A program made the position numbers and the translations under genes. 64,000 nt of DNA from Phycisphaerae bacterium RAS1. GTDB lineage: Bacteria > Planctomycetota > Phycisphaerae > UBA1845 > Fen-1342. Of this stretch, positions 3,100-11,202 are shown piece by piece (position 1 is the first letter of the stretch; each line of letters starts with the position of its first letter). The notes under the pieces are model-generated. The model was not told where the DNA came from and searched no databases. It saw nothing but the letters and a program-made list of their open reading frames with translations. Where the stretch lies: NCBI GenBank assembly GCA_007859745.1, contig SMLU01000001.1, positions 620,001-684,000 of the forward strand, in the 5' to 3' direction.

Positions 3100-5568
3100 A
3101 TGGCGACGTTTCTACAAACCTGCCTGCTCCTCGGCGTCTTCACGCCGCTGGCCAGCTTCGTCTTTCTGGCTTTCTTCGGCACGCGCCTCCCCCGGCCCGG
3201 ATGGCTGATGAGCCTGCATCACCGCCTGGCCCGCGATGCGGACGAGCACGCCGGCGGCCCACACGGCCACGGTCCCGGCCCGCCAGACGCTGCGGTGCAC
3301 GCCCATCGTCATGGTTCCACCCCCGGCGAGCCACTGGCCGGCTGGATTGCGACCGCGGCCATCGGCATGTCGCTGCTTCTGGCGATTCTCGCCACGTTTG
3401 CCTGGGGCGGCGTCTCAGAGCCGGACCGCGACGCCCTGTCGCGCCTGGCCGCGACGCAGGCGCCGCTCTGGGTGACCCTGGGCAGCGTGCCGATCCGCTT
3501 CGGCGTCCGGCTGGATTCGCTCACGGTCATCGTCTTCCTGATGGTCACCCTGTGCGCGACGTGCATCCACGTTTTCAGCGTCGGCTACATGAAAGGCGAC
3601 CCGCGCTTCGCCCGCTTCTTCACGTTCCTGTCGCTCTTCTGCTTCTCAATGCTCGGCCTGGTGATCAGCACCAGCCTGCTGTTCCTGTTCGTCTTCTGGG
3701 AACTCGTGGGCGTGTGCAGCTACTTCCTGATCGGCTTCTGGTTCGAGAAGAAATCGGCCAGCAACGCGGCGATCAAGGCCTTCGTCGTCAACCGTGTCGG
3801 CGACTTCGGATTCGTCATCGGCGTGGGTCTTTGCTTCGCCTACCTGGGCGACCTGTCGCTGGACGGGGCGACCGCGGTCATGCAGGCCGGAGCGCACCGC
3901 GCCGGAGTCATCAGCGGCCTGCCCGACGCGGCCGTCGCCGTCGCTGAGCCGCAGGCGGCGCGGGCGGCGGTTTTGTTTTCGACCAACTTCGCCGGCGTGA
4001 GCCTCGCAACCTGGCTCGGGCTGATGCTCTTCTGCGGGGCGATCGGAAAAAGCGCCCAGTTCCCGCTGCAAGTCTGGCTGCCCGACGCGATGGAAGGCCC
4101 GACGCCCGTCTCCGCCCTGATCCACGCCGCCACAATGGTCGCCGCCGGCGTCTACCTGGTCGCCCGCATCTTCCTGCTGCTGACGCCTGCGGCGCTCGAC
4201 GCCATCGCCGTCGTCGGCTGCATTACGCTCACCATGGCGGCGCTGATCGCGATCGTGCAGACCGACATCAAGCGCGTCCTGGCCTATTCGACGCTTTCGC
4301 AGCTCGGCTACATGATCTTCGGTCTGGGCATCGGCGCGTGGGTCGGGGCCATGTTCCATCTGCTCGTACACGCTTTCTTCAAGGCCCTGCTCTTCCTCGG
4401 CGCCGGACAGGTGATCGCGGGCTGCCATCACGAGCAGGACTTGCGGCGAATGGGCGGGCTGGGCGGGAAGATGCCGCGAACGACGCTCACGTTTCTGGTC
4501 GCCGTGCTGGCGATCGCCGGGGCGGGGATCCCGTTCACGCCGATGGGGCTGGGAAGCTTCTACAGCAAAGACGAGATTCTGGCGGTCGCCAATTTCCGCC
4601 ATCACGAGGGCACGCTCTCGCTGATTCTGTACCTGCTGCCCGTGGCCGTGGCGTACATCACGCCCTTCTACATGGGCCGCTGCTTTATTCTGGCGTTTCT
4701 CGGAAAGCCGCGCGATTCGCATGTTCATGAGCACGCGCATGAAAGCCCGCTGATGTACCGGCCGCTGCTGGTGCTGGCGGCGCTGACGCTGATTGCCGGC
4801 GTGCCGATCTGGATTTTCCGCAGCTACGTGGTGAGCGCCGCGCCGGAGGCCTCGCCGCTGGCGCAGGTTTTCGACGGCCGATCGCACGAAGTCGAGCACG
4901 CGGTGCACACGACGCTCGTGCTGCACGTCGGGTTGGCGTTCGCAGTCGGCCTGGGGCTGGCGTGGTGGCTCTATCGCGACGGCCTGGAACGCGCCGCCCA
5001 GTTTGCCAAGCTGCCCTGGGTGCGCCCGGTCCACACGCTGCTGTCCAAGAAGTTCTACTTCGACGAGATCTACGGCGTCGTCTTCGTCGGCGGTTCGCGG
5101 GCCCTGGCCTACGCCGGCCGGCTTTTCGACACGTGGATCATCGACGGCATCGTCGATACGTCGGCCTATCTGACTGAGCGCATCAGCCGCTTCTCCGGCG
5201 TCGTAGTCGACAACATGGGCGTTGACGGAATGTTCAACGGCCTGGCCGCCGTCACCTCCGCCGTCGGCGGCGCCCTGCGCCGCGTGCAGACCGGGTTGAT
5301 CCGCAACTACATTCTGATTGCGACGGCGGCGGTCGCGGCGGCGCTGATTGGCTGGCTGTGGAGCCCTTCGGCGGCGGCGATCGCGTTATTGGTCTTGGTC
5401 CTGGCGCTCGTATGGCCATTCGTGTTGAATGCGCCCAGTCGAGCGAGTGTCGCTGGTCTTAGCCCCGCAGGAGCGCGGGTCAGCCCCATGGGGGCGACGG
5501 TCAGCCCGGTAGGGGCGATGGCCAGCCCCGCAGGGGCGATGGCCAGCCCCGTAGGGGCGAAAGAGTAA
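3100..5568 (+). CDS. nuoL: NADH-quinone oxidoreductase subunit L (NuoL)
   Basis: Distal antiporter-like proton-pumping subunit of complex I (ND5 homologue). Recognisable motifs are FWELVGVCSYFLIGFWF at residues 199-215, holding the key helix-5 glutamate, LPDAMEGPTPVSALIHAATM with the conserved channel residues, and DIKRVLAYSTLSQLGYM. At 822 residues it is longer than E. coli NuoL (613). One addition is a His-rich loop (GGPHGHGPG and HAHRHG) at about residues 40-73 between the first helices. The other is the extreme C-terminus, residues 788-822: five exact seven-residue repeats of type SPxGAxx, encoded by five 21-bp palindromic repeats of the neighbouring transposon-like element, with the stop codon at its edge. 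The lateral helix region before this tail looks intact, so the protein is probably functional. Confidence 0.95.
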   Translation: MATFLQTCLLLGVFTPLASFVFLAFFGTRLPRPGWLMSLHHRLARDADEHAGGPHGHGPGPPDAAVHAHRHGSTPGEPLAGWIATAAIGMSLLLAILATFAWGGVSEPDRDALSRLAATQAPLWVTLGSVPIRFGVRLDSLTVIVFLMVTLCATCIHVFSVGYMKGDPRFARFFTFLSLFCFSMLGLVISTSLLFLFVFWELVGVCSYFLIGFWFEKKSASNAAIKAFVVNRVGDFGFVIGVGLCFAYLGDLSLDGATAVMQAGAHRAGVISGLPDAAVAVAEPQAARAAVLFSTNFAGVSLATWLGLMLFCGAIGKSAQFPLQVWLPDAMEGPTPVSALIHAATMVAAGVYLVARIFLLLTPAALDAIAVVGCITLTMAALIAIVQTDIKRVLAYSTLSQLGYMIFGLGIGAWVGAMFHLLVHAFFKALLFLGAGQVIAGCHHEQDLRRMGGLGGKMPRTTLTFLVAVLAIAGAGIPFTPMGLGSFYSKDEILAVANFRHHEGTLSLILYLLPVAVAYITPFYMGRCFILAFLGKPRDSHVHEHAHESPLMYRPLLVLAALTLIAGVPIWIFRSYVVSAAPEASPLAQVFDGRSHEVEHAVHTTLVLHVGLAFAVGLGLAWWLYRDGLERAAQFAKLPWVRPVHTLLSKKFYFDEIYGVVFVGGSRALAYAGRLFDTWIIDGIVDTSAYLTERISRFSGVVVDNMGVDGMFNGLAAVTSAVGGALRRVQTGLIRNYILIATAAVAAALIGWLWSPSAAAIALLVLVLALVWPFVLNAPSRASVAGLSPAGARVSPMGATVSPVGAMASPAGAMASPVGAKE
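5461..5565. repeat. Five 21-bp tandem palindromic repeats, left array, translated in nuoL
   Basis: Units start at 5461, 5482, 5503, 5524 and 5545, an exact 21-base period. Each has the core AGCCCC(N)2-3GGGGCG, a short hairpin. The period is a multiple of three, so the frame of nuoL stays open through all five units. An inverted array with the same period lies at 6171-6260. Confidence 0.9.
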
Positions 5569-5638
5569 AGCCCACGGCGTAAGCCGTGGGTCGCCGCGAC
5601 ATTGAACGTATCTTGAAGCCCCGTAGGGGCGAAAGAAC

Positions 5639-6089
5639 ATGGCGCACAGCTTCGCCAACCTGCTCCACCACGTGATCTTCAGCACGAAGGACCGCTCCGC
5701 GCTGATCGACAGCGACCTCGCGCCTCGACTCCATGCGTATCTGGGCGGGATCGTCGACGAACTCAATGGCGTCGCGCTGGCGATCGGCGGCGCCGTGGAT
5801 CACGTTCACCTGCTCATCAAACTTCCGGCAACGGTTGCACTCGCCGACGCGATCCGCATCATCAAGACGAATTCATCGAAATGGGTCCATGACACGTGGC
5901 CCGATAAACGCGCTTTCGCGTGGAGGCGGGTACGCGGCATTCAGCGTCAGTCAATCGGCAGTCGCCGACGTTCGCGCGTACATCGCGGATCAGGAGGACC
6001 ACTATCGGCGCGTCTCGTTCCAGGAGGAATTCGTCGCGTTTCACAAGCGGCATGGGATTGAATATGACGAACGCCACATCTGGCAATAG
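5639..6089 (+). pseudogene. REP-associated tyrosine transposase (RAYT, IS200-like), frameshifted
   Basis: The first 95 residues (MAHSFANLLHHVIFSTKDR...) match the Y1/IS200-like transposase family, with the metal-binding HUH motif in DHVHLL at about 54-59. The frame breaks around 5924-5930. The rest of the domain continues in the next frame from about 5931 (YAAFSVSQSAVADVRAYIAD...) and contains the likely catalytic tyrosine in VRAYIADQ and the usual SFQEEFVAFHKRHGIEYDER ending, stopping at TAG 6087-6089. The net shift is one extra base or two missing bases. Without the shift the product would be near 149 residues, a normal RAYT size. As it stands the first frame runs to 6061 with unrelated sequence and lacks the tyrosine. 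A sequencing error cannot be excluded. Confidence 0.85.
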
Positions 6090-6170
6090 GCCGGTTCTTT
6101 CGCCCCTACGGGGCTTTGGAAATACGAGGGGCCGCGCGGCCCCACGGTTTGCGCCGTGGGCTTTACTCTT

Positions 6171-6260
6171 TCGCCCCTGCGGGGCTAACAATCGCCCCTG
6201 CGGGGCCAGCAATCGCCCCTCCGGGGCCCGGAATCGCCCCTACGGGCCCCGAATCGCCCC
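6171..6260. repeat. 21-bp tandem palindromic repeats, right array (inverted)
   Basis: Units beginning TCGCCCC at 6171, 6192, 6213, 6234 and 6254 (period 21, the last step 20). Each forms a short CCCC..GGGG hairpin. The array is the inverted counterpart of 5461-5565 and ends about 30 bases before nuoM. Confidence 0.88.
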
Positions 6261-6290
6261 CAGCGCGTTCATGCGTAACGAGCGTGCCAC

Positions 6291-7862
6291 ATGACTGAAA
6301 CCACCCTCCTCACCTGGATCGTCTTCATCCCCGTCCTCGGCTTGCTCGCCCTGCTGCCCGTCGCACAGGCCGTCACGATGAAACGCGTCGTCCTCGGCGC
6401 GTGCGGCCTGTCCTTCATCCTGTCGCTGGCGCTCATCCCGCCCTACATCGGCGGCAACGGCTCGGGCGGAACGTACGGCGCCGTCCGCTTCCGGCAATTC
6501 GCAAGTTGGATATCGACGTCCGACAAGGCGTTCATCATCAACTACGACGTCGGCGTCGACGGCCTGAGCATGCCGCTGGTCGTCCTCACGACGCTCATCA
6601 CCTTCCTCGCCTGCCTCGCAAGCTGGAACTTCGAGCAGTGGAAAACCAAGCGCGGCCTCAAGGGCTACCTGGCCATGTTGCTGTTGCTCGAAACCGGCAT
6701 GCTGGGCGTTTTCGTCTCGCTTGACTTCTTCCTGTTCTACATCTTCTGGGAAGTGATGCTGCTGCCGATGTATTTCCTCATCGGCATCTGGGGCGGTCCG
6801 CGCAAGGAATACGCCGCCATCAAGTTCTTCCTGTTTACGCTGGCCGGCTCGGTGCTCATTCTGATCGTGATGCTGGCGTTCTACTTCTACCCGGCGGTTG
6901 AGCTGCGCACGTTCAACATCCTCGAACTCGCCTCGAACGCCCGCATTCAGGCGCTCTTCCGCGACAAGGCCACGCTCTTCTGCGGCCTGCCCTTCGCCGA
7001 GACGATGTTCGTCCTGCTGTTCATCGGCTTCGCCATCAAGCTGCCGGTGTTTCCGTTCCACACGTGGCTGCCCGACGCACACGTCGAAGCCCCCACACCC
7101 ATCAGCATGATCCTCGCCGGCGTGCTGCTGAAAATGGGCGGATACGGGTTCCTGCGATTCTGCTACCCGATCCTGCCGACGGCGGCCGAATCGCTGGCCA
7201 TCGCCCTCGGCGTCCTCGGCATCATCAACATCATCTACGGCGCGCTGTGCGCCATGGCCCAGGACGATTTCAAGAAACTCGTCGCCTACAGCTCCATTTC
7301 GCACATGGGCTACGTCCTGCTCGGCCTGGCCTCGCTCACGCAGGCCGGCTTCCAGGGCGCGATGTTCCAGATGATCGCCCACGGCATCAGCAGCCCGATG
7401 TGCTTCTTCCTGGTCGGCGTCATTTACGACCGGGCACATCATCGCGAGATCAACCGCTTTGGCGGCTTGTGGCTGAACATGCCGGTCTATGGCTCAATGG
7501 CCACGCTGGGCTTCTTCGCGTCGCTGGGACTGCCCGCCTTGTGCGGGTTCATCGGCGAAATCTACGCCGTCTTCGGCGCGTTCGACTCGAAAGCCCTCGG
7601 CCCCTACGCGACGCTCTTCGGGATTCTGGCCGCGTCGGGCGCGATTCTGACCGCGGCGTACATCTTGTGGATGATCCAGCGCGTCTATCTCGGCCCCAGC
7701 AAGGCCGAATACGCCGGTTTCGGCGACGCCGACCGCCGCGAAGTCGCGATTCTCGCCCCGATGGCGGCGCTGTGCGTGCTGCTGGGCGTCTTGCCGAAGC
7801 AGACGATGCTGGATTTCGTCAGCGGAACGCTGAACCAGATCCTCGCGTTGACGGGGTACTGA
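6291..7862 (+). CDS. nuoM: NADH-quinone oxidoreductase subunit M (NuoM)
   Basis: Antiporter-like proton-pumping subunit of complex I (ND4 homologue), 523 residues, close to the usual length. Motifs: FYIFWEVMLLPMYFLIGIWG with the conserved helix-5 glutamate, FHTWLPDAHVEAPTPIS, the lysine in AGVLLKMGGYG, and DDFKKLVAYSSISHMGYV. About 14 membrane helices. ATG 6291 is the natural start; it lies 30 bases after the right repeat array of the RAYT element, so ribosome loading may now depend on sequence supplied at that border. nuoN follows after 166 bases that hold an inverted repeat. Confidence 0.96.
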   Translation: MTETTLLTWIVFIPVLGLLALLPVAQAVTMKRVVLGACGLSFILSLALIPPYIGGNGSGGTYGAVRFRQFASWISTSDKAFIINYDVGVDGLSMPLVVLTTLITFLACLASWNFEQWKTKRGLKGYLAMLLLLETGMLGVFVSLDFFLFYIFWEVMLLPMYFLIGIWGGPRKEYAAIKFFLFTLAGSVLILIVMLAFYFYPAVELRTFNILELASNARIQALFRDKATLFCGLPFAETMFVLLFIGFAIKLPVFPFHTWLPDAHVEAPTPISMILAGVLLKMGGYGFLRFCYPILPTAAESLAIALGVLGIINIIYGALCAMAQDDFKKLVAYSSISHMGYVLLGLASLTQAGFQGAMFQMIAHGISSPMCFFLVGVIYDRAHHREINRFGGLWLNMPVYGSMATLGFFASLGLPALCGFIGEIYAVFGAFDSKALGPYATLFGILAASGAILTAAYILWMIQRVYLGPSKAEYAGFGDADRREVAILAPMAALCVLLGVLPKQTMLDFVSGTLNQILALTGY

Positions 7863-9703: not shown

Positions 9704-11202
9704 AGACTGAGAACTTTTCCTTTGGCCGGCGTCGGTTTCCTTGTCGCATGGTCTGCGGCTCGTGATTCGCTTGTTTACTTCGGCTGCACCGGCGGGTTCA
9801 TTCGCTCACCGTTGGTCAGGTGACGAGCTGCGCGGTGAAGTGCATCACGTTGTAGGCGAGGGCGGCCCAAAGGGCCTGGCAGCGTACTTTGGCCAGCCCG
9901 CGCACGACGCATTGCGCCAGTCCGCGATACCGTTTCAAGTCGGCGTTGACCGGCTCGGCGGTCGAGGCTCGCTGCTTATAGATCGTCTGGCCCGCCGGCG
10001 TTCCCATGCGCACGCGCCAGGCCGCCACGCCCGGACCGTCAGAGCGTTTGGGCGCAAAGCCCGCGGTGTCGTTCCCGGTCTTCTGCGGCGGCGCATAGAT
10101 GCGCGTGCCCGCCGCTTCGGCGCGCTCGATCTCGGCCAACTGCACGTAGCCGCCGTCGAGCAGGTGCTCTACCACCTTCGCGCCGCTGCGCCGCTCCACC
10201 TGGGCGCGCAGCGGCGCTGCTTGCTGGTGGTCGCTGCGGGCCTGGGTGACGTCCACCCCCACAATCGCGCGGCTCTCCACGTCGGTTGCCAGTTGTACGT
10301 TATACGCCGGACGGTAGCCGCCGTCGGGCATCTTCATGACGCGCGCTTGCGGGTCGATCGTCGAGGCCCGCGGCTCTTTGGCACGCACGTCCGGCCGCTT
10401 GGACTGCTGCTGGTCTGCGCCAATCTTCGGCAACTCGGCCAACGCCGCTTCGATTCGCTCGACCCGCTCCCGGGCCGCACGCTCCTGCGCGGCACGCCGT
10501 CGCGCATCCGCGGCAGGGTTGTCCGACTGGGCCTTGACCGCCGCCACATGGGCGCGGGCTTCCGTCAGTTGACGCTGCAGCGTCGCCTCGCGGCGGAAGG
10601 TGTGCCGCCCGGCGTCGGCCCGCACCTTGGTTCCGTCCTGCGCAATCCGACGCACGCTCACGATCCGCTTGTGCATCAGCACCGCCAACACCTGCGAAAA
10701 CAGTTCGTCCAGCGCCGCCCTGTGACCGACGCGGAAGTCATTCAACGTGTGATAGTTCACCGGCACGCCGCCGCACAGCCAGCGAAAAGCGTCCTGGCAG
10801 CCGCAGCGTCGCTCGATCTCGCGCCCACTGCCAATCCCCTCGATCGTCGCGTACAGCCACAACGCCGTCAGCAACTGCGGATCCGTCGCCGGCCGGCCCG
10901 GCTCGTCGCCGCGCGCCTTGAGCGGGGCGCTGAACGCCGAAAGATCGAGCCGCTCCACGACCGACCAAACCGCCCGCGCCGCGTGATCCGCCGGCAGCAG
11001 ATCCTCCAGACAGCACGGCAGCAGCAACGACTGCTCGCGATTCGGCCGCCGAAGCCGCGGCGGCTCCGCCAACGCACGCCGCCCCGTCGATTCCGATACT
11101 GGGTCGTTCATCACGGCATCCATTCCGGCAATCAGCATCGTCGTGTCCATGTCGAATAATGTACCATCCCCGGCAAGGGGGATTTATTCTCACTCTCGTA
11201 AG
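9698..11202. mobile_element. IS1182-like insertion sequence with 6-bp target duplication
   Basis: The element proper is 9704-11196 (1493 bp). Its ends are inverted repeats: left AGACTGAGAACTTTTCC, right end read inward AGAGTGAGAATAAATCC (9 of the first 10 bases identical). CGTAAG is present directly outside both ends (9698-9703 and 11197-11202), as expected for a target duplication. One minus-strand transposase gene fills it. Joining the flanks after removing the IS and one CGTAAG restores a near-perfect palindrome of family J. Confidence 0.85.
9816..11150 (-). CDS. IS1182-family transposase (DDE)
   Basis: 444-residue transposase. The N-terminal part (residues ~30-120: NREQSLLLPCCLEDLLPADH, RCGCQDAFRWLCGG, YHTLNDFRVGH) is the domain typical of IS1182/IS5-like transposases. 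The catalytic part includes the first acidic residue in RIAQDGTKVRADAG, the second in AIVGVDVTQARSDHQQA, and a late glutamate in RASTAEPVNADLKRYRG. A charged coiled-coil-like segment separates the first and second catalytic motifs. The frame is intact from ATG 11150, 46 bases inside the right end of the element, to 9816, so the IS may still be active. The family name is from recognised motifs, not from a search. Confidence 0.9.
   Translation of the reverse strand: MDTTMLIAGMDAVMNDPVSESTGRRALAEPPRLRRPNREQSLLLPCCLEDLLPADHAARAVWSVVERLDLSAFSAPLKARGDEPGRPATDPQLLTALWLYATIEGIGSGREIERRCGCQDAFRWLCGGVPVNYHTLNDFRVGHRAALDELFSQVLAVLMHKRIVSVRRIAQDGTKVRADAGRHTFRREATLQRQLTEARAHVAAVKAQSDNPAADARRRAAQERAARERVERIEAALAELPKIGADQQQSKRPDVRAKEPRASTIDPQARVMKMPDGGYRPAYNVQLATDVESRAIVGVDVTQARSDHQQAAPLRAQVERRSGAKVVEHLLDGGYVQLAEIERAEAAGTRIYAPPQKTGNDTAGFAPKRSDGPGVAAWRVRMGTPAGQTIYKQRASTAEPVNADLKRYRGLAQCVVRGLAKVRCQALWAALAYNVMHFTAQLVT

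Follow-up and report, generated by a model that had tools for sequence, protein, structure and literature searches.

In the genome of Phycisphaerae bacterium RAS1 a transposase gene framed by nested inverted repeats lies in the complex I (nuo) operon, where nuoL meets nuoM, and the question raised by this locus is to what kind of mobile unit the gene belongs and what the repeats around it are. The locus is part of a stretch of 64,000 nucleotides (contig SMLU01000001.1, positions 620,001 to 684,000), referred to here as the window, the numbering of which is used throughout. The original prediction, made from the letters of the window, was a complete element of repetitive extragenic palindromes (REP) with a REP-associated tyrosine transposase (RAYT). 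The present analysis points to a transposon inserted in nuoL, with hairpin ends that belong to the Rfam family RF01687 (Acido-Lenti-1). This family would then be primarily a DNA end structure and not a small RNA (sRNA) gene, a reading to which we assign a probability of roughly 85%.

Anatomy of the unit and its insertion in nuoL

An Rfam scan of the whole window gives three matches, namely one tRNA and the double hairpins on both sides of the transposase gene tnpA, which exceed the RF01687 gathering score of 37 bits across all 46 positions of the family. RF01687 is filed in Rfam as an sRNA. Weinberg et al. (2010) presented Acido-Lenti-1, from Acidobacteria and Lentisphaerae, as a probable non-coding RNA, to which the main text of that paper assigns no function (PMC2864571), and in Tannerella a possible role in regulating protease genes has recently been suggested for it (PMC13298647). 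A literature search of incomplete coverage found Acido-Lenti-1 rarely mentioned and no paper tying RF01687 to a transposase. Unlike the family as described, the matches in the window form an inverted pair of apparent transposon ends, and such ends occur in more phyla than these two. The features of the unit and of the genes that it touches are as follows.

5461..6261, no strand: inserted unit of ~801 bp, a multiple of 3, delimited by the array limits and by the restored NuoL frame and ATGA overlap; the outer limits are deduced and uncertain by a few bases
3100..5568, + strand: nuoL; its last codons, 5461 through the TAA at 5566-5568, come from the element
5461..5560, + strand: left array of outer hairpin A, with five copies in 21-bp phase that are read as the new NuoL tail
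5545..5590, - strand: left end double hairpin, Acido-Lenti-1 (RF01687); Rfam 53.7 bits, model R1 (see below) 64.8 bits
5616..5638, + strand: left inner hairpin C, directly 5' of the tnpA ATG; 100% inverted repeat of 6094-6116
5639..6089, + strand: tnpA, Y1/HUH transposase of the subclass 1.2 type (PF01797, 59 bits; intact relatives and their signature), frame broken near 5926; the N-terminal open reading frame (ORF) spans 5639-6061, and the C-terminal part lies in the other frame and extends to 6089
6094..6116, - strand: right inner hairpin C, inverted repeat of the left arm
6141..6186, + strand: right end double hairpin, Acido-Lenti-1 (RF01687); Rfam 41.5 bits
6171..6260, - strand: right array of outer hairpin A copies in 21-bp phase, decaying outward
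6262..6294, + strand: displaced original nuoL 3' end (SAFMRNERAT*), its stop overlapping the nuoM start
6291..7862, + strand: nuoM

The two ends of the unit are inverted copies with three hairpins (A, B and C) each. From the outside inwards, each side contains the array of hairpin A, the 46-bp double hairpin (A and B) and the inner hairpin C, and an inverted pair of 114 nt (81%) covers both sides. The array unit is a 16-nt hairpin, AGCCCC-NNN-GGGGCGA, with a period of 21 bp; the hairpins start at 5461, 5482, 5503, 5524 and 5545 and, mirrored, at 6171, 6192, 6213 and 6234, so that the phased 21-bp arrays had been correctly placed on both sides. In the window, exact matches to the hairpin word number eight, all in this unit, against 0.04 expected from shuffling. 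The double hairpin consists of the outer hairpin A, the linker GAAAGAGTAAA and hairpin B (CCCACGGC/GCCGTGGG). All nested inverted repeats named in the original prediction around a tyrosine transposase gene were found again. The 23-bp arms are fully complementary and the last base of the left arm precedes the ATG at 5639, as predicted; the 37-bp pair exists too, but only as the inner part of the double hairpins.

Judged from the sequence, the unit is inserted in the last codons of nuoL. If 5461-6261 is excised (join 5460|6262), the residues ...SVAGL fuse in frame to SAFMRNERAT*, and the stop codon overlaps the ATG of nuoM. The two relatives nearest in NuoM, G014 (68% identity) and G018 (67%), likewise have an ATGA in which the nuoL stop and the nuoM start overlap. 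Because joining the flanks restores both the frame and this overlap, the original 3' end of nuoL appears to have been displaced beyond the element. The predicted place in the nuo operon is correct insofar as the unit was inserted there, but it lies inside the 3' coding end of nuoL and not between intact genes. No hairpins were found at the nuoL-nuoM loci of other relatives (0 of 18 examined), nor were the same repeats seen there without a transposase. At 5461-5565 in-frame translation of the 21-bp array gives repeats of seven residues, and the present C-terminal tail of NuoL comprises the element-encoded heptads VSPMGAT VSPVGAM ASPAGAM ASPVGAKE, followed by a stop codon that is also supplied by the element.

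The transposase and its association with RF01687

The product of tnpA belongs to the Pfam family Y1_Tnp (PF01797, 59 bits). Its frame breaks near 5926, whereas the close relatives that were read have a single uninterrupted frame of ~150 amino acids. Because of this frameshift the copy in the window is probably inactive and the unit now probably immobile here, and the element cannot be called complete. A programmed frameshift was considered and rejected, as the close relatives keep one frame throughout. When one genome per species was scanned for relatives of this TnpA, 80 named loci were obtained, the titles of which include Planctomycetota, Acidobacteria, Verrucomicrobia, Bacteroidetes, Deltaproteobacteria, Ignavibacteria, Calditrichaceae and others. 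By pattern matching, the motif Y---Q--HH is present in 76 of the 80 relatives, DH[VI]H in 67 and WQ in 64, and a profile of the relatives matches the solved ISDra2-type and ISHp608 transposases. The window copy contains DHVH, a W followed by the frameshift and, in the second frame, YIADQEDHY, which is one residue off Y---Q--HH.

Quentin et al. (2018; PMC6006769) characterise TnpA subclass 1.2 by these three motifs. By signature only, and not by tree placement, the TnpA of the unit can be assigned as a putative HUH/tyrosine single-strand nuclease of this subclass. Its members were described mostly from Cyanobacteria and Bacteroidetes, generally without typical terminal structures such as REP or insertion sequence (IS) ends (PMC6006769). 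The relatives collected here resemble subclass 1.2 in length (~150 amino acids) and in all three motifs, but differ in their conserved nested hairpin ends and in their occurrence in planctomycete, acidobacterial, verrucomicrobial and other genomes.

A tyrosine transposase between palindromes that form inverted pairs across the genome would also be expected of an ordinary RAYT/REPtron and its REP repeats. However, the frameshifted fragment scores 17 bits with the NCBIfam RAYT model (cut-off 80), and 50 bits with the IS200/IS605 model (cut-off 55). The relatives carry Y---Q--HH and not the RAYT motif Y..NP, and the hairpin feet of the unit are GAAAGA, with no GTAG or CGTC. In addition, the true RAYTs of the same genomes are without these ends: at 30 control loci none was flanked, and one unrelated pair lay ~650 bp or more away. 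Membership in the RAYT/REPtron group was rejected on the model score, the control loci and the tyrosine motif, and the RAYT assignment of the original prediction is considered quite unlikely. As a separate observation on RAYTs, the genome to which the window belongs (G000) contains three identical-scoring RAYT genes exactly 1578 bp apart (C1:2614672-2618295), with a fourth, reversed, near by.

Transposase genes of the kind found in the window are closely associated with RF01687. With the Rfam model at the cut-off set by Rfam itself, RF01687 lies at most 350 bp from tnpA at 35 of the 80 loci, and 74 of the 80 tabulated matches at the loci fall within that distance, a tabulation in which one long array (L198, see below) entered as two matches only. 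A model trained on 39 ends (R1) places ends in canonical orientation on both sides of the gene at 56 of 79 loci, with median distances from the gene of 62 and 57 nt. Since 32 of the tested loci supplied training rows, the figures for the 47 loci outside the training set are preferred; 41 of these have an end near tnpA, 25 have canonical ends on both sides, and the density of matches is 39-fold higher near tnpA. Co-occurrence is also evident among 119 related genomes, 55 of which have both a close TnpA and RF01687, while 12 and 14 have one of the two and 38 neither (Fisher p ~1e-9, uncorrected for relatedness). Two Bacteroidota cases extend the pattern: an isolate plasmid of Persicobacter (L351) has the same double-hairpin ends and inner hairpins in different letters, and Bernardetia (L350) has an inverted pair that model R1 misses.

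Copies, miniatures and tandem arrays

The arms of the unit do not stand alone but recur ~40 times in the genome: the 5.5-Mb sequence contains 41 RF01687 matches, and 29 sites match the 35-nt end of the window unit with at most three mismatches (reversed control, 0). Together with the repeat-free nuoL-nuoM loci of the relatives, this bears out the proposal that the repeats are the ends of an inserted unit. Adjacent RF01687 pairs within 700 bp number 13, and all 13 have the -/+ orientation of the window unit, which is one of them. The other 12 are miniatures of 195-319 bp without tnpA, and those that were read have the same A-B-C / C-B-A layout. As dispersed inverted pairs of end hairpins without a transposase, they resemble REPINs, and by this analogy they may be mobilised by TnpA. 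One miniature, at C1:410951, was considered as a possible interruption of a dockerin gene, but the left half of the gene was not found and the case was not used. The outer flanks of ~30 ends from this genome gave weak preferences only as to the exact target site. The genome also contains two more subclass-1.2-like transposase genes (L001 1912-2119 and L002 912-2082) with diverged, weaker-scoring ends of the same kind. In G007 (L280-L299) many near-identical Acido-Lenti-1 miniatures sit within a larger shared repeat that has its own inverted flanks; as most of the 20 stretches around high-scoring copies there lie in this repeat, the boundary of the unit was not fixed.

Tandem runs of ends recur at other loci, with periods of ~72 bp in L094 and ~66 bp in L228. 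In Desulfococcaceae bacterium HSG8 (L198 2382-5587), ~7 and 30 Acido-Lenti-1 copies follow each other in a single orientation with a period of 69-71 bp and with a transposase gene inside. In the window, hairpin A alone is repeated, at 21 bp. Such expansion, at 21 bp here and at ~65-72 bp elsewhere, might suggest that the repeats are host repeats, terminators or expanded simple arrays for instance, which a transposase entered. Yet the layout and the spacing around tnpA are common to several phyla, once the whole unit is removed nuoL is in frame again and the ATGA overlap returns, and the nuoL-nuoM junctions of relatives carry no repeats, which makes host repeats highly improbable.

In comparison with known systems, the unit shares with IS200/IS605 elements (subclass 1.1; IS608, ISDra2) a single-domain Y1/HUH transposase, end hairpins and a length below 1 kb. 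The ends of IS200/IS605 elements are not inverted repeats, whereas those of the window unit are inverted (23 bp at 100%, and the 114-nt pair) with two to three hairpins each. Like the unit, REPIN/RAYT and TIRtron/TIRYT systems have a tyrosine transposase gene between palindromes in inverted pairs, and further copies without tnpA in the genome (Bertels and Rainey 2011, PMC3116915; Di Nocera et al. 2013, PMC3733652), and TIRtrons already include some double palindromic terminal inverted repeats (PMC3733652). They differ in that the window transposase is not of the RAYT class and that its ends have no GTAG/CGTC tag; the TIRYTs described fall in subclasses 2.1, 2.2 and 2.5, and none in 1.2 (Quentin et al.; PMC6006769). 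A wider claim would combine several propositions: that Acido-Lenti-1, rather than being an RNA gene, is the DNA end of a group of TnpA subclass 1.2 transposons that spans several phyla and had not been recognised before; that its inverted double-hairpin ends are intermediate between those of IS200 and REPtrons; and that the end arrays, which range from hairpins in 21-bp phase up to runs of over 30 copies, are a product of the transposase's own action. Taken jointly these are tentative, with slightly less than even odds.

DNA hairpins, RNA and a proposed mechanism

In the stems of 39 ends (37 distinct) pairing reaches 99.2%; a change on both sides is seen in 90 cells, and one-sided changes are absent. 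In 127 distinct ends, which partly overlap with these 39, G-U accounts for 8 of 1565 pairs; for the tRNAs of the same genome it is 30 of 540 (5.6%), compared with 0-0.5% in RF01687 stems. Because G-T is a poor pair in DNA, a pattern of double changes that bypass G-U agrees with selection acting on hairpins of DNA. The stem covariation favours DNA hairpins as support and not as proof, because the rows were picked by covariance models.

It is also conceivable that Acido-Lenti-1 works as RNA, be it a true small RNA or a regulatory structure, and lies beside tnpA by chance, for example with control over the translation of tnpA. Such a role would agree with the sRNA listing in Rfam and with the inner hairpin, which adjoins the tnpA start codon in several elements. 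Hairpins near start codons often control the translation of transposases. The near absence of G-U pairs and the inverted arrangement of RF01687 on both sides of the gene, which is also present in pairs without tnpA, render an RNA of this kind unlikely, and Acido-Lenti-1 is most likely a transposon end; the inner hairpin may have a secondary role as RNA.

Tyrosine nucleases of the IS200/IS605 type are known to recognise hairpins that lie subterminally in single-stranded DNA (PMC6006769). By analogy, TnpA would recognise the end hairpins when these fold in single-stranded DNA, for which the replication fork is the most likely place, would cut and rejoin them, and would in this way move both full units and the miniatures of ~200 bp that lack tnpA. 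The inverted arrangement of the ends would allow folding of either strand, as it does in REPINs and TIRtrons. Translation of tnpA could, in addition, be limited by the inner hairpin at its start codon.

Several points weigh against a transposon with RF01687 ends. Transposition was not observed, so that movement of the unit is inferred, and the transposase in the window is broken. The right end of the window unit folds as DNA only weakly better than shuffled sequences do (z -1.6), and from the outer flanks neither a target duplication nor a fixed target sequence was resolved. The covariation rows (A2/A3), selected as described above, are biased to intact pairs. Finally, in G048 and G099, with ~30 RF01687 copies each, no TnpA of this kind was detectable.

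If RF01687 does represent transposon ends, an orphan Rfam family listed as an sRNA since 2010 gains a proposed function, and transposase subclass 1.2, described as lacking ends, would gain them. Many genome annotations of 'Acido-Lenti-1 RNA' would then need re-reading as ends of mobile elements. Elsewhere in the window, past the nuo genes, an ORF of 444 amino acids (9816-11150, - strand) resembles, as judged by eye, a DDE-type IS transposase.
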